From Aquabacter sediminis (GTDB lineage: Bacteria; Pseudomonadota; Alphaproteobacteria; Rhizobiales; Xanthobacteraceae), in the NCBI RefSeq assembly GCF_028863665.1, contig NZ_JARBFX010000003.1, positions 248,001-312,000 of the forward strand: 64,000 nt of DNA. The letters run 5' to 3'. The position numbers and the translations under genes were made by a program. The notes under the pieces are model-generated. The model saw only the letters and a list, made by a program, of their open reading frames with translations, did not search any database and was not told the DNA's origin. Positions 47,667 through 55,102 of this stretch are shown here, piece after piece (positions within the stretch are counted from its first letter, which is position 1; each line of letters begins with the position of its first letter).

Positions 47667-48154
47667 GCCGGAAACCGCCGGTGTTCTCGGCTTGGGTGGC
47701 GCGGAACTGGCGCGGATCAAGGGGCCGGCGGGCCTGAACTGGGCCTGGCGAACATCGCCCCCTGCCCCTGCGCCCGTCGCGCCCCGACCGGTGCCTCATC
47801 CGATGCCTCATCCGACGCCCCTTCCGGTGTCCGCTTCCGGCCTCCACCCTCCGGGATGACGAGGCCGACGTTTCGCATCGCCCCTCAATCGGCCGCCCCA
47901 TCGCCCCCGGCGCCGCCCCGCGACGGTCGCCCCGAGCCATCTCCCGCTTCCAGCCTTACCCCCGGCTTGCCCCATCGGCTCGCCCTCTCCAGGCGCCCCC
48001 GGTCGCGCCCGTCTGCTACGGCCAAGCCGCACGATCGCGCGAGGCGCCCCCCTCGCCGCGGGCTTTCCCCCAGCCTTCCGGTGGCGTCCCCTTGCCACAC
48101 AGGCGGGCTCCGGGACACCTTGCCCCCACCCGCGACCCGCACCGGAGCGACAGG
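47667..48154. other. Intergenic region before the GAF-GGDEF gene
   Basis: A 488-bp, C-rich gap between the metal regulator and the diguanylate cyclase. A short tandem CCTCATCCGA-type repeat occurs at about 47792-47815. Many ORFs cross it on both strands because of low stop-codon density, but none has a ribosome site or known motif. No clear promoter or terminator was seen. Confidence 0.4.
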
Positions 48155-49207
48155 ATGTGGCAGCCGCCCCGCCCCCCCGCGAACGAAGCCGAACGCCTCC
48201 GGGTGCTGGCCGCCTGCCACATCATGGATACGGCGCCGGACGAGCGGTTCGAGCGGCTGACCCGCCTCGCCACTGCGCTCTATGGGGCAGAGGTCGCCTT
48301 CCTGTCCTTCATCGACGACGCCTTCCAATGGATGAAGGCCATGTCCGGGCCGGGGCTGGCGCCGGTGGTGGAGCGGCGGCGCACGGTCTGCAACCTCATC
48401 ATTGAGAGTGGTCAGCCGCTGGTGGTGGGGGATCTGCACACGGATCCGCGTTTGGCTGGACATCCGCTCGCCACCTCCCTGCCGTACCGCTTCTATGCGG
48501 GTGTCCCCCTGCTGCTCACGCCTGACCTTGCGCTGGGGACGCTGTGCGTGCTGGGCCGTGCCGTTCGGGAGGAGAGCACCTTCCCCCTGGGCCCGCTGCA
48601 AGACCTCGGCGCCATCGCCGTTGACGAGCTGGACCTGTGGCGGATCAACCAGGACCTCAAGCGCCGGGCAGACACGGATGCCCTCACGGGCCTCAGCAAC
48701 CGGCGGGCCTTCGACGAGGAGCTGGAACGGGCGGGGCGGCGGGCGCGGCGCACCGGAGAGCCGGTCTCGCTGCTGCTGGTGGACCTCGACCACTTCAAGG
48801 CGGTCAATGACGTGTCGGGCCATCCGGCGGGAGATGCGGTGCTGCGGCGCACCGGAGAGCGCCTCAAGGGCGCCGTGCACCGCGCCGATGACCTCGCCGC
48901 CCGCTATGGCGGCGAGGAATTCGCCGTCATCCTTCCGGGCACCGACGGGGCCGGCGCGGCCGCGCTGGCGGAAGCCATCCGCGCCGACATCGCCGCCGCC
49001 GACATGCCGCACCCCCTCACCGGCCGCGTGACGGCCAGCATCGGCGCGGCGACCCATGCGGGGGGCGAAGCAGACCCGGTGCAACTGGTGTCGCAGGCGG
49101 ACCGCGCTCTCTATCGCGCCAAGGCGCTGGGGCGGGACAGGGTGGTCGTGTTCGAGGCCATGGGCGAGGCCCTGACGCCCGCTGCCCTGGCGGGCGTGGA
49201 CGGTTAA
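48155..49207 (+). CDS. Diguanylate cyclase with GAF domain
   Basis: A 350-residue soluble protein: a GAF domain (about 20-165; ALYGAEVAFLSFIDD, RFYAGVPLLL, GTLCVLGR), then GGDEF (about 175-330). The active site is RYGGEEF near residue 251, with an RxxD inhibition site (RADD) five residues before it; TDALTGLSNRRAFDEEL is intact. It should make c-di-GMP. The GAF segment resembles those found in free-standing sensor cyclases. The ATG at 48155 follows GGAG at a distance; 48092 is a less likely start. Its signal is unknown. Confidence 0.87.
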   Translation: MWQPPRPPANEAERLRVLAACHIMDTAPDERFERLTRLATALYGAEVAFLSFIDDAFQWMKAMSGPGLAPVVERRRTVCNLIIESGQPLVVGDLHTDPRLAGHPLATSLPYRFYAGVPLLLTPDLALGTLCVLGRAVREESTFPLGPLQDLGAIAVDELDLWRINQDLKRRADTDALTGLSNRRAFDEELERAGRRARRTGEPVSLLLVDLDHFKAVNDVSGHPAGDAVLRRTGERLKGAVHRADDLAARYGGEEFAVILPGTDGAGAAALAEAIRADIAAADMPHPLTGRVTASIGAATHAGGEADPVQLVSQADRALYRAKALGRDRVVVFEAMGEALTPAALAGVDG

Positions 49208-49345: not shown

Positions 49346-50689
49346 TCAGTCGATGGCGTCCATATATTCCTCGGCCACCTTCATCTCATGGCCGAGCGGA
49401 ACCCGGCCGGACAATGCGGCCGCCAGGCGCGCCTCGTCCAGTTCGCCCTCCCAGCGTGCCACCACGATGGTGGCCACCGTGTTGCCGATGAAGTTGGTGA
49501 TGGCCCGGCACTCGGACATGAAGCGATCGATGCCGAGAATGAGCGCCATGCCGCCGATCGGAACGGAGGGCACCACGGAGAGCGTGGCGGCCAGCGTGAT
49601 GAAGCCGGCGCCCGTGATGCCCGCCGCGCCCTTGGAGGAGAGCATGGCGACCAGCAGCAGGAGGATCTGGTCCCACAGGCTCAGCTGGATGCCGGTGGCC
49701 TGGGCGATGAACAGGGCCGCCAGCGTCATATAGATGTTGGTGCCATCCAGGTTGAAGGAATAGCCGGTGGGCACCACGAGGCCCACCACGGAGCGGTGGC
49801 AACCGGCCAGCTCCATCTTCTCCATCAGGCTCGGCAGGGCCGCTTCCGAGGACGAGGTGCCGAGCACCAGGAGCAGCTCTTCCTTGATGTATTTCAGGAG
49901 CTTCCAGAGCGAGAAGCCGTTGTAGCGGGCGACCGCGCCCAGCACCACGAACACGAACAGGAACGAGGTGATGTAGAAGGTCACCAGCAGCATGGCCAGG
50001 CTCACAATGGAGCCGAGGCCGTAGCGGCCGATGGTGAAGGCCATGGCGCCGAAAGCCCCGACGGGGGCCGCGCGCATCAGGATGGCTACCAGGCGGAACA
50101 TGCCCTGGGCGGTGGAATGCAGCACGGTCATCAGCGGCTCGGCCTTGTCGCCGATGCCCGCGAGCGCGATGCCGAACAGGACCGCGAAGAACAGCACCTG
50201 GAGAATGTCGCCCGAGGCCATGGCGCTGATGGGCGTCGAGGGAATGATGTTCATCAGGAAGCCGACGATGGTGGAATCGTGGGCCTTGGCGATGTAGTCG
50301 GCGGTAGCCTTGGGGTCGAGGCTGGCGGGATTGATGTTCATGCCCGCGCCGGGCTGCACCACATTGCCCACCACCAGGCCGATGATGAGCGCCAGCGTGG
50401 AGAAGGTGAGGAAGTAGATCATGGCCTTGCCGGCCACGCGGCCGACCTTGCCGAGATCCCGCATGCCGGCGATGCCGCTCACCACGGTCAGGAAGATGAC
50501 GGGAGCGATGACCATCTTCACCAGCTTGATGAAGGCGTCGCCCAGGGGGCGCAGCTCCACCGCGAACTTCGGGTAGAAGTGGCCGAGCAGGATGCCGAGA
50601 ATGATGGCCACGAGCACCTGGAAATACAGGTGGTGATGCAGCTTGGGGCGACGCACGGCCGGAGCCGGCGCCGAAAGGGCGACCGCCAT
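49346..50689 (-). CDS. dctA: C4-dicarboxylate transporter DctA
   Basis: A 447-residue proton/sodium symporter of the DAACS family for succinate, fumarate and malate. Motifs: [32 protein letters not shown] (re-entrant loop), [13 protein letters not shown] and the helix with [25 protein letters not shown]. The ATG at 50689 has AGGAGAA six bases upstream. Its leader carries a sigma-54 promoter and upstream DctD-type dyads, so it is presumably switched on by DctBD when dicarboxylates are present. Confidence 0.96.
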
Positions 50690-50781
50690 GAGCGTTTCTC
50701 CTGTGGCCCTTCGGCGCCTCTTCATTGGGGCACCTTCGGAACCGGTTGGACGGAAGAGGCGGATGCCTCGCCCCCCCTTCG

Positions 50782-50796
50782 GCAAGGCCCGTGCCA
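50782..50796 (-). promoter_or_regulatory. Sigma-54 (-24/-12) promoter of dctA
   Basis: On the minus strand TGGCACGGGCCTTGC, an excellent match to the sigma-54 consensus TGGCAC-N5-TTGC. Transcription would start about 80 bases before the dctA ATG. Confidence 0.88.
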
Positions 50797-50876
50797 AAGG
50801 GGGCCGTCGGCGGCGCCAGGAAAGTGGCTTGAATCCAAACGCGTTTTTGCCGGTGCTTCGCCGCCGATTTGACGCA

Positions 50877-52802
50877 ATGTGCGAAATTTCGCACAATCTC
50901 GCCCAAAGTCGCGTGCGGATTTCCGCACATTCGGGAGCCTTCGCCCTGCCCCAATCCCCCGCTCCCGCCATTCCGCCCGCTGCGGCGGCCGACCGAGCGC
51001 CGCTGCGCCGGCGGCGGGCCTCCTGGCTGGTGCTGGGCACCCTCGCGCTTGGGGCGCTGGTGGTTCTGGATGCGGTGGCCGCCCATGTGGCGAAGAACTG
51101 GGCGATGTCCCAGTTGCGGGCCACGGCCGAGGCGGCGGTGGCGCTGCGGGGCGCCATGCTGCGCTCGGAGATCGAGAAACAGCGCGCGCTGCCGCTGGTG
51201 CTTGCCGGCGACCCCGGCGTTCAGGAAGCGCTCGCCGCGCCCCAGGAGGGCCGGCTTCTGGCCCTGGACGAGCGGCTGGAGCGGATCGCCCAGGAAAGCC
51301 GGGCCGGCGCCATCTATGTGATCGACGCCCAGGGCCTGACCCGCGCCGCCAGCAACTACCGCACCGCCGAGAGCTTCGTCGGCAGCAACTACGCCTTCCG
51401 GCCCTATTTCACCGGCGCCATGACCGATGGCCAGGCCGAGCATTTCGCCTTCGGCACGGTGAGCCACCGGCCGGGCCTTTATCTGTCCCGGCGCATCGAG
51501 GGCACCACGGGGCCGCTCGGCGTGGTGGTGGTGAAGGCGGAATTCGGCGCCACGGAAGACGCCTGGCACGCCCTACCGGAACCTGCCTTCGTCACCGATG
51601 AGCGCGGCATCGTGCTGGTGGCGAGCGAGCCGGCCTGGCGCTTCCATGCCACCGTGCCGCTGGATGCCGCCCAGCGGGCGGACATTCGCGCCTCGCTCCA
51701 GTTCGGCGATGCCCCGCTCGCCATGCTGCCCATCCGTCCCTCCCGCGACCTGCCCGGCGCGGCCTTCGTGGCCGCCCCGCCGGCTTTGGCGGGCCAGACC
51801 TTCGTCGCCTCGGACGCGCCGCTGCGCACCTCGGGCTGGACGCTCCATGTGCTCGCCCCCACCGCGCCCTCCGTGCCGCTGGCCACCACGGCCGCCCGCT
51901 CGCTGGCCCTGCTGCTGGGGGTGGCGGGCTTCGGCGTGGCGGGCATCTGGACCGCACGCCGCCGAAGCCTTGCCCGGGAGCGCGACCGGGCGGCGGCGGC
52001 CCGCCGCGAGCTGGAGGCCCGGGTCGCCGAGCGCACCCAGGCGCTCAGCCACACCAATGAACGCCTCACCGCCGAGATGGAGGAACGCCGCCGCACCCAA
52101 GCCGCCCTCGGCCATCTCCAGGACGAACTGGTCCAGGCCAACAAGCTGGCGGTGCTCGGCCAGATCGCGGCCTCCGTCGCCCATGAGGTGAACCAGCCTG
52201 TGGCGGCCATCCGCACCTATGCGGAAAATGCCCGCCTGTTCCTGGAGCGGGGCGATGCCGCCTCCGCCCGCTCGAACCTTGTCATCATCGACGACCTCAC
52301 GCAGCGGGTGGGCGCCATCACCGGCGAGTTGCGCGCCTTCGCCCGCAAGGCACCCGCCGACATGGAGCCGGTGTCGCTGCGCGCCGTGCTGGAAGGGGCG
52401 CGGCTTCTGGTGCGCCATCGCCTCGCCGAGCAGAAGGTGGCGCTGGAGATCCACATTCCCATCACCGACGTGGTGGTGCGCGCGGCCCGCATCCGCCTGG
52501 AGCAGGTGTTTGTGAACTTGCTGCAGAATGCCATCGAGGCCCTGGACGGGCGGCGCGACGGGCGCATCCGCATCACCGCGCGAACGGAAGGGACCATGGC
52601 GGTGGTCACCGTCTCGGACAACGGGCCGGGGCTGGCGGCGAGCGTGCGCGAGGCGCTGTTCATGCCGTTCGTCACCACCAAGCCGGAGGGCCTCGGCCTC
52701 GGCCTCGTCATCGCCCGCGACATCGTCGCCGAATGCGGCGGCACCTTCACCGCCGGCGAGGGGCCCGGCGCGGTCTTCCTTCTCACTTTGGCGAGGGCCT
52801 GA
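50877..52802 (+). CDS. dctB: C4-dicarboxylate sensor histidine kinase DctB
   Basis: A 641-residue (from ATG 50877) membrane sensor kinase. First helix at about 48-70 ([21 protein letters not shown]), a periplasmic double-PAS sensor of about 250 residues ([32 protein letters not shown]), a second helix ([17 protein letters not shown]), a coiled coil, then the H-box [12 protein letters not shown] and the ATPase motifs [27 protein letters not shown]. Start unclear: the ATG at 50877 lacks a ribosome site and would put the DctD dyads inside the coding region; GTG at 50913 is the next candidate. The frame is open to 50643 but overlaps dctA. Confidence 0.9.
50879..50928. promoter_or_regulatory. Tandem DctD-type enhancer dyads
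   Basis: TGCGAAATTTCGCA (50879-50892, a perfect palindrome) and TGCGGATTTCCGCA (50915-50928), 36 bases apart centre to centre and about 85-130 bases upstream of the sigma-54 promoter. They resemble the paired DctD sites upstream of rhizobial dctA. They overlap the first codons of the DctB reading frame. Confidence 0.75.
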
Positions 52803-52804
52803 CC

Positions 52805-54187
52805 ATGGCGCATCCCGCCGACCGGCCGCCGGACGTGGCCTTCATCGACGATGACGACACCCTGCGCGCCGCCAACATCCAGTCGCTCATGCTGGCGGGC
52901 CTTGCCGCCTTGCCCTTTGCCAGCGCAGAGGCGGCGCTGGAGGGGATCGATGCGGGCTTTCCCGGCGTCGTGGTCACCGACGTGCGCATGCCCGGCATGG
53001 ACGGGCTCGAACTGTTCCGGCGGCTGAAGCGGCGCGATGCGGACCTGCCCGTCATCCTCATCACCGGCCATGGCGACATCGCCATGGCGGTGGAGGCCAT
53101 GCGGGAGGGGGCTTATGACTTCCTCGCCAAGCCCTATTCCGGCGAGCGGCTCCTGGGGGCCATCCGCCACGCGCTGGAAAAGCGCCGGCTGGTGCTGGAA
53201 AACCGCGAGCTGCGCCGCGCCGCCCAACTCGCCGCCCAGCATGCGGCTGAATTGGCCGAGGAGGAGCTGCCGCTGCTCGGCGCCGACCCGGCCATGGAGC
53301 GCCTGCGCCAGACCATCCGCCAGCTCGCCGATGCGGACGTGGACGTGCTGGTGGAAGGCGAGACGGGCTCGGGCAAGGAGGTGGTGGCCAATCTCCTCCA
53401 CCGCCTCGGCCCCCGGGCGGCGCGGCCCTTCGTGGCGGTCAATTGCGGCGCGCTGCCCGAAACCATGATCGAGAGCGAACTCTTCGGCCACGAGGCCGGC
53501 GCCTTCACCGGGGCGCTCAAGAAGCGCGTGGGGCGGATCGTCTTCGCCCATGGGGGCACACTGTTCCTGGACGAGATCGAGGCCATGTCCCCCGCCCTCC
53601 AGGTGAAGATGCTGCGGGTGCTGGAGGCGCGGGAGGTGATCCCGCTGGGCGCCAATGAGGGCCGGCGGGTGGACATCCGCGTGGTGGCCGCCGCCAAGAT
53701 CAATCTGTTGGAGCTGGTGAAGGCCGGGCGGTTCCGGGAGGATCTCTATTACCGCCTGCATGTGGCGACGGTGCGCATTCCCCCCTTGCGGGAGCGCCGC
53801 TCCGACGTGCCGCTGCTCTTCTCCCATTTCCTCGCCGCCGCCGCCAAGCGCTTCCGCCGCCCGCCGCCCGTGGTGGGGCGCACGGTGCTGGACCGGCTGG
53901 AAACCCACGACTGGCCCGGCAATGTGCGCGAACTCCTGCATTATGTGGAGCGCGTCGCCCTCGGCCTCGTGGACACGCCCGTCCCGGCCGAGCCCGCAGC
54001 CGGCGCGGTTCCCCTGCCGCAGCGGGTGGAGGCCTATGAGGCCGAGCAGATCCGCGCCGCGCTCGCCGCCCACCAGGGCGACGTGCAGGCCACCGTCAAG
54101 GCGCTCGGCATCCCCCGCAAGACCTTCTACGACAAGCTCCACCGCCACGGCATCGACCAGAACGCCTTTCGCGGCGGGCGGGAGTAG
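52805..54187 (+). CDS. dctD: C4-dicarboxylate response regulator DctD (sigma-54 activator)
   Basis: A 460-residue NtrC-family regulator. Receiver domain with FIDDDD and the phosphorylated Asp59 in [12 protein letters not shown]+ domain with GETGSGKE (Walker A), EAGAFTGA (the sigma-54 contact loop, intact) and LFLDEIEA; C-terminal Fis-type helix-turn-helix ([19 protein letters not shown]). It starts two bases after the dctB stop. It should bind the paired dyads at 50879-50928 and drive the sigma-54 promoter of dctA. Confidence 0.96.
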
Positions 54188-54193
54188 AGACAG

Positions 54194-55102
54194 CTATTTC
54201 CCGTCTGCCCGCAGATACCGGCCGAGAAAGGCCGGCACGCGCGCGAGGGCATCCGTGCGGGCAGCGGGATCGGTGGCGACGATGGGCACGGCCCCGTCCT
54301 TGGTGCGGAATTCCGGGCGTTCGCGATAGGCAAGGCCCGGCCAGTCGAAATCATGGTAGGCGCCGGGATAGATGTGGAGCGTCACCGGACTTCCCGCTTG
54401 CGCCGCCTGCGTGAGCAGCGCCGCGCAGGGCTCAAGGGGCGTCCACACATCCTTTTCCCCGGTCAGCACCATCAGCGGAATGCGGCTCGACCAGCCGCCG
54501 GGCTGGCGCTCGGGCCGGCATGAGCCGGGATAGAAGGCGACCGCCGCCTGGAAGTCCCGCGCCGGGGCAAGGCCGGCGGGGCGGGCGGCACTCTTGGTGC
54601 GCAGCGTGTTCAGCACCGCGCCGCCCCCCTGCGACCAGCCCATGAGCGCGACGCGGCCGGGGTCCACAAAGGGCTGGGCCTGAAGATAGGCGAGCGCGCC
54701 ATACATGTCCTGCGGGCGGGCGCGATAGACCTCCGAGCGGAAGGTCGCGGGCGCGCACATGGATTTCACGCCGCGCGGGGTGAAGCTGTCCACCATGAGC
54801 ACACGATAGCCGTCGCCGGTCAGGCGCTGCGCCCAGGCGATCTCGCGGGCGTTGATGCCGGACTTTCCGATCAGGCCGCCGCAGCCATGGGCGAAGATGA
54901 CCGCCGGGCCGGGCCCGTTCGCTGTGCTCGGGCGGAAGAGATAGCCGTCGAGCGGGGTGCCGTCGCGGGAGGGAAAGCTGACTTTCTCCTGCGCGTGAGC
55001 CTCCTGCGCCCAAAGGCTGGCGCCGGCGGCCAGACTTCCCAGCAAAGCCAGGCCCGCCAGCGCGACGCGAGCCCATGCGCGGCGGGTGAAAACGTGTCGC
55101 AC
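54194..55102 (-). CDS. Exported dienelactone-hydrolase-like alpha/beta hydrolase
   Basis: A 302-residue secreted hydrolase. A signal peptide (VALAGLALLGSLAAGASLWAQ, cleavage near AHA at about 38) precedes a DLH-type alpha/beta fold: FAHGCGG oxyanion region, nucleophile elbow GWSQGGG (serine, not the cysteine of true dienelactone hydrolase), LTGEKDVWTP (acid) and YPGAYHDFDW (histidine). Substrate unknown; probably an ester in the periplasm. It is convergent with dctD and 205 bp downstream of the lactonase-like gene on the same strand. Confidence 0.82.
   Translation of the reverse strand: MRHVFTRRAWARVALAGLALLGSLAAGASLWAQEAHAQEKVSFPSRDGTPLDGYLFRPSTANGPGPAVIFAHGCGGLIGKSGINAREIAWAQRLTGDGYRVLMVDSFTPRGVKSMCAPATFRSEVYRARPQDMYGALAYLQAQPFVDPGRVALMGWSQGGGAVLNTLRTKSAARPAGLAPARDFQAAVAFYPGSCRPERQPGGWSSRIPLMVLTGEKDVWTPLEPCAALLTQAAQAGSPVTLHIYPGAYHDFDWPGLAYRERPEFRTKDGAVPIVATDPAARTDALARVPAFLGRYLRADGK

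Follow-up and report, generated by a model that had tools for sequence, protein, structure and literature searches.

The interval between dctA and dctB in the window (the whole 64,000-nucleotide stretch of DNA analysed here) is probably a divergent region in which the DctD enhancer of dctA lies within the promoter and leader of dctBD, DctD represses dctBD, and DctB starts most likely at CTG 50946; we hold this combined reading with moderate confidence. The compact control region would span 50782 to 50948. DctD would bind two dyads that serve the sigma-54 promoter of dctA as its enhancer, and at dyad 1/2 it would exclude the sigma-70 RNA polymerase from the dctBD promoter; as DctD rises, transcription of dctBD would fall and dctA would be activated, and translation of DctB would begin past the enhancer, most likely at the CTG behind the GGGAG at 50933–50937. 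This reading is built on the sites and their conservation, on a disagreement of reading frames and on conserved −35 and −10 letters, all of them observed in the sequence and its comparison. The layout is real and of an ordinary kind, a known arrangement in a new form, and the interest lies in the proposed doubling of an enhancer as part of the dctB promoter, in the candidate CTG start shared by both congeners and in an apparent promoter shift. The features are as follows.

49346–50689, minus strand: dctA, C4-dicarboxylate transporter, 447 aa (Pfam SDF, 6.2e-113; NCBIfam DctA NF002461, 687.1 bits against a cut-off of 513)
50796–50782, minus strand: putative sigma-54 promoter of dctA, TGGCACGGGCCTTGC (exact match and conserved place)
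50869–50874, plus strand: TTGACG, putative −35 element of the proposed dctB promoter (consensus scan; TYGAC in 25 of 27 loci)
50879–50894: dyad 1, DctD-type site nearer the dctA promoter, GTGCGAAATTTCGCAC (perfect; 18 bp, 50878–50895, if T50878 and A50895 are counted)
50892–50897, plus strand: CACAAT, putative −10 element of the proposed dctB promoter, separated by 17 nt from TTGACG
50903–50905, plus strand: predicted dctB transcription start, placed from the promoter position about 7 nt after the −10 element
50913–50928: dyad 2, DctD-type site farther from the dctA promoter, GTGCGGATTTCCGCAC (arms perfect, centre imperfect)
50933–50937, plus strand: GGGAG, candidate Shine-Dalgarno sequence before CTG 50946 (duplex energy −6.6 kcal/mol)
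50946–52802, plus strand: dctB, sensor kinase, with the proposed CTG start (dCache_1, HisKA, HATPase_c)
52805–54187, plus strand: dctD, sigma-54-dependent response regulator (Response_reg, Sigma54_activat, HTH_8)

Gene content of the locus

The locus has the composition of a DctA-DctBD system: a dctA-type transporter gene stands beside genes for a sensor kinase and a sigma-54 response regulator, and the periplasmic sensor domain of the kinase resembles that of solved DctB. Residues 70–329 of DctB matched the solved sensor domains 2zbb (E 1.6e-65) and 3e4o (E 3.2e-65), which we take to be S. meliloti DctB. Both DctB and DctD display the expected domains, and no cut-off was passed among the best 25 of 69 matches for DctB and the best 25 of 105 for DctD. 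The window DctD is 62% identical to S. medicae DctD over 449 columns, and the helix-turn-helix end is nearly identical. By eye, the flanking open reading frames resemble a GAF-GGDEF protein (48092–49207, plus strand) and a dienelactone hydrolase (54194–55102, minus strand).

Tandem DctD-type sites and the dctA promoter

The first-pass annotation had described a textbook sigma-54 promoter at 50782–50796 and paired 14-bp DctD-type dyads at 50879–50892 and 50915–50928. The dyads are real, but each is 16 bp long and they occupy 50879–50894 and 50913–50928, 34 bp apart. For a loose pattern, GTGCG-N6-CGCAC, 0.43 occurrences per window are expected; it was present at least twice in 6 of 100 shuffles and has 16 places in the genome against 41 for a reversed control, so that it is not rare. 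The AT-core form GTGCGRAWWTYCGCAC, a pattern written after the window dyads had been seen, has exactly two exact matches in the 5.33 Mb genome, and both are the window dyads; with up to two mismatches it has 20 places against 13 for the reversed control, the other 18 carrying two mismatches and none carrying one. The promoter also stood: TGGCACGGGCCTTGC on the minus strand is the sole exact sigma-54 match in the window. By itself this sequence is weak, because with up to one mismatch the pattern has 3 window matches against 2.2 expected, and its weight comes from its place and its conservation.

It is indeed conservation that convinces for both the putative sigma-54 site and the dyads. A search of 391 family genomes gave 31 strong DctB matches, the window's own counted, of which 30 loci were fetched. 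Two dyads 31–34 bp apart were present in 27 of the 30 loci with the window counted, or 27 of the 29 that are readable. The pair is missing from L099, whose contig ends 2 bp upstream of the DctB match, and from L104 and L105. The latter two, both of genus g24, have one good dyad and a poor second, and no sigma-54-like site was found in them. Among the 27 loci with the pair, 25 (window counted) have a sigma-54-like site 97–99 bp from dyad 1, the exceptions being L098 (90 and 108 bp) and L106 (88 bp). These loci are related to one another, as are those of the wider set described below, and their counts are not independent.

Upstream of dctA the window thus has the features of a DctD-activated sigma-54 promoter, a −24/−12 element with two DctD-type sites beyond it. 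Read on the reverse strand, dyad 2 (50912–50929) shares 17 of 18 letters with the R. meliloti DctD site TGTGCGgaaatCCGCACA given in the available part of PMC11077940, and dyad 1 shares 15 of 18. The conserved anatomy and the near-identity of dyad 2 to a published site support the earlier proposal that dctA is under sigma-54 and DctD control, and DctD would be expected to bind both dyads.

Many of these loci also have a sequence resembling the IHF consensus, YAANNNNTTGATW, between the sigma-54 promoter and dyad 1, about 57–58 bp before the dyad. An IHF-like score of 8 or 9 out of 9 was obtained in 16 of the 27 family loci, against 3% of single-base shuffles; 15 of these 16 lie at −57/−58 and one, L095, at −48. 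The best score in the window is 6, in the 50822 region.

The start of dctB

This analysis would move the presumed beginning of dctB, as ATG, GTG and TTG alone allow a start before the first membrane helix only inside or before the enhancer. An in-frame candidate that the first-pass annotation had missed, CTG 50946, lies 17 nt after dyad 2, and a CTG lies at the corresponding place, 16 nt after the dyad, in the congener L013 (genome G018; DctB 92% identical), the one congener in a genus search of two genomes with the window's own counted. CTG starts are rare. In both genomes this position combines a Shine-Dalgarno sequence and a conserved place with the lack of a usual start codon, and in each a second CTG competes with it. 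Among the 25 relatives left when the window and the congener are excluded, 22 have an in-frame ATG, GTG or TTG 12–28 nt past dyad 2; the exceptions are L085 (59 nt), L106 (9 nt) and L102, which has a stop 51 nt after the dyad and in which a start was not found.

The Shine-Dalgarno energies agree with this position and are of modest specificity. The duplex at CTG 50946 is equal to the median of −6.6 kcal/mol obtained for the best in-frame NTG 8–30 nt after dyad 2 (range −12.3 to +0.4; 25 of 27 loci), and mean pairing over the 27 family loci is strongest 0–16 nt after dyad 2 (−2.5 to −3.3) and reaches up to −2.4 elsewhere. Pairing of −6.6 or better occurs at about 12% of all positions examined, and pairing of −5.8 or better, the value of the congener CTG, at 18%; several relatives pair weakly at their start (L014 −4.3, L091 −4.2, L018 −4.1). 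The proportion of codons with G or C in the third position is 14 of 23 at 50877–50945, 32 of 38 at 50946–51059 and 524 of 580 beyond.

The alternative that fares best is a start farther downstream, at CTG 51003 or GTG 51030, which would leave DctB with little N-terminal sequence ahead of its first membrane helix, or with a start inside that helix. These codons have pairing energies of −5.0 and −5.5, and in L013 the second CTG, 36 nt on, has the stronger Shine-Dalgarno sequence of its two (−9.5). We nevertheless regard this alternative as unlikely, roughly a one-in-five matter, as 51003 is 74 nt after dyad 2, against the 12–28 nt of most relatives, and the downstream candidates of the window and the congener are not at equivalent positions. 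CTG 50946 is the best candidate for the start of dctB, and an unusual CTG start common to both congeners would be a point of interest in itself.

A putative sigma-70 promoter around dyad 1

The stretch that bears the dyads seems to be the promoter and leader of dctB. A consensus scan of 50600–51100 returned a single sigma-70-like site, TTGACG-N17-CACAAT at 50869–50897 (mean 0.0 in 50 shuffles), which encloses dyad 1 as its spacer and puts dyad 2 in the proposed 5' leader of dctB. CACAAT agrees with TATAAT at 4 of 6 positions, and its first letters are shared with dyad 1. The pattern TTGAC-N17to19-CACANT, written after the site had been seen, has one match in the window against 0.11 expected.

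This site is conserved as well. TYGAC occupies positions −10 to −6 from dyad 1, outside the dyad, in 25 of the 27 family loci, and when columns were anchored on dyad 1 in these 25 loci (L098, with TGGAC, and L106, both lacking TYGAC, were left out of the count), T[CT]GAC was invariant and CACANT followed seventeen bases on in most. Only columns −11 (1.13 bits) and −13 (0.84 bits) stand out among the ten before TYGAC, so that the conserved block is not exactly a hexamer. A separate sigma-70 score peaked at dyad 1 in 25 of the 27 loci, and elsewhere in L092 and L106. The window and the congener share 62 of the 65 bases of 50867–50931, among them 17 of the 18 that separate the dyads, compared with 52 of 70 just upstream.

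With dyad 1 in the spacer of the predicted promoter, bound DctD should block dctBD while activating dctA. Autoregulatory repression of dctBD by DctD, which the first-pass annotation had raised as a possibility, is for this reason more likely than before, on a different ground from the one then given, and activity of the predicted promoter at 50869–50897 would be part of it. If true, this gives a testable reason for the enhancer to stand beside dctB, since the same binding of DctD would activate the transporter gene and limit its own sensor-regulator pair.

The promoter region in other clades

The same region was read in a wider set of 34 loci, made up of 28 of 30 fetched loci and 6 plasmid records; L137 and L138 were omitted, their genes being already in the family set, and L129, which is the gene of L105, passed only at a lower threshold. 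From a separate set of 43 loci, 27 were checked for dyads and 26 read (L067 omitted), with the short kinase-domain matches L069–L084 lying outside it. Three pairs, L042/L085, L043/L014 and L058/L147, each seem to represent a single locus. In L055–L057 and L060 the dyad search found no second dyad, and dyad 2 was set by hand 32 bp from dyad 1.

In contrast to the window family, 22 of the 34 wider loci show an in-frame ATG exactly 9 or 10 nt past dyad 2, often accompanied by a TTG-like element on the upstream side of this dyad: in the eleven with the ATG at 9 nt this element lies about 9 nt before dyad 2, and the other eleven are less regular. Taking the family and wider loci together, TYGAC stands at dyad 1 in 29 of 61, all of which lack an ATG 9, 10 or 12 nt after dyad 2; of the 32 others, 24 carry an ATG at one of these distances and 8 show neither feature (Fisher 1.8e-10, uncorrected for kinship and with distances picked after the loci had been seen). 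The sigma-70 score on the wider loci was best at dyad 2 in 11, at dyad 1 in 5 and elsewhere in 18; since it agrees only partly, a promoter register at dyad 2 rests on the column patterns and the start positions. Inspection by eye of 14 betaproteobacterial loci showed a hexamer resembling TANAAT or TATACT that ends exactly at dyad 2 in 13 of them, all but L051; two of these loci, L056 and L057, do not differ over this stretch, and in L055–L057 and L060 the dyad is one of those placed by hand.

This split bears on another reading of TYGAC, as part of an extended DctD site or as the site of another protein and not as a −35 element, in which case dctB would not be repressed by DctD. TYGAC does always adjoin a dyad, and its neighbouring columns are partly conserved, as such a site would have it. 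Yet it is one-sided, it stands at −35/−10 spacing, and its presence at dyad 1 alternates with the close ATG in the uncorrected counts above, all of which make this reading improbable, at little better than one chance in ten.

Returning to the sigma-70 promoter, the dctB promoter of Rhizobiaceae and others may, on weaker grounds, have left dyad 1 for dyad 2 and shed its leader, with the ATG now near the predicted transcript start. A still broader statement is tentative, and we would put it at somewhat under an even chance: that DctD enhancers generally form the core of the dctBD promoter, with one dyad as the sigma-70 spacer, and that the promoter has moved between dyad 1, where dctB has a leader, a Shine-Dalgarno sequence and even CTG as its start codon, and dyad 2, where its ATG is leaderless, while repression of dctBD by its own activator was kept throughout. 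If true, such a shift between dyads with leader loss would be a clear case of regulatory rewiring with the logic kept.

Reading frame across the enhancer

It had been proposed that the enhancer lies within the dctB coding sequence, DctB starting either at ATG 50877, with its first 18 codons encoding the sites, or at GTG 50913. Both codons are present and in the DctB frame. The open frame says little, because it extends far upstream, back to 50637, and ATG 50877 is not the only upstream in-frame ATG, as had been stated, with 50688 and 50763 in frame too. The frames of window and congener disagree across the enhancer, and the equivalents of both codons lie outside the DctB frame in L013; the alignment has a 1-nt indel just before CTG 50946, and the weakly conserved sequence that follows this codon contains further gaps. 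Of the 27 family loci, 12 offer no in-frame ATG, GTG or TTG ahead of the point where dyad 2 ends; the other 15, the window among them, offer at least one, which counts against our reading. The candidate Shine-Dalgarno sequence stands after dyad 2, and the conserved sigma-70-like promoter occupies the stretch that would be coding.

Of the two codons, GTG 50913, formed by the first letters of dyad 2, is the better placed, being a few nucleotides past the predicted transcript start, so that a very short leader would be possible. Its Shine-Dalgarno energy of −0.6 kcal/mol, its position out of frame in the congener and the varying frame of dyad 2 relative to DctB among the family loci make it very improbable. 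ATG 50877, although its ATG is found in the congener too and its first codons would encode both enhancer sites, has hardly any claim left, as it lacks a Shine-Dalgarno sequence (−0.2 kcal/mol), falls between the proposed −35 and −10 elements and hence upstream of the predicted transcript start, and opens a stretch of lower third-position GC. A coding enhancer, from either codon, was accordingly rejected on frame, Shine-Dalgarno pairing and promoter position.

Relation to known systems

Tandem DctD sites are known from the Sinorhizobium/Rhizobium dctA-dctBD region (Ledebur and Nixon, 1992; Scholl and Nixon, 1996; as cited in the available part of PMC11077940), which the window resembles, as far as that source extends, in its divergent genes, its sigma-54 dctA promoter and its two upstream DctD sites. 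It differs in that, in the window family, dyad 1 lies within the proposed dctB promoter and a leader bearing a Shine-Dalgarno sequence precedes dctB. The predicted repression also has parallels. According to the accessible portion of PMC3870243, E. coli NtrC activates the sigma-54 promoter glnAp2 and represses glnAp1 and glnLp of its own operon; the likeness would be that an enhancer-binding protein switches on a sigma-54 promoter and also holds down promoters of the operon to which its gene belongs, although in the glnA case target and regulator genes share one operon, whereas dctA is divergent and the repression here is a prediction. S. meliloti NtrC autorepresses dusB-ntrBC (available excerpt of PMC10746234), another two-component operon held down by its own enhancer-binding protein, as would be the case in the window, though regulator, operon and sites are not the same. 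How dctBD is controlled varies between bacteria: one Vibrio vulnificus dctBD operon is NtrC-activated, in the part of PMC9040800 available. Our literature search, which covered the older literature in part, found neither a paper on repression of dctB by DctD nor one on where dctB starts, and the main text of the S. meliloti start-site paper PMC3616915, within the portion available, does not contain the name dctB.

Among the four annotated plasmid records, two have the annotated dctB start inside dyad 2: L112, from S. medicae (dyad 2 at 1347–1362, annotated start 1357), and L113, from R. leguminosarum (dyad 2 at 1368–1383, annotated start 1378). In these two records the in-frame ATG 9 nt after dyad 2 may be the likelier dctB start; in L114 and L115 the annotated start lies past dyad 2.
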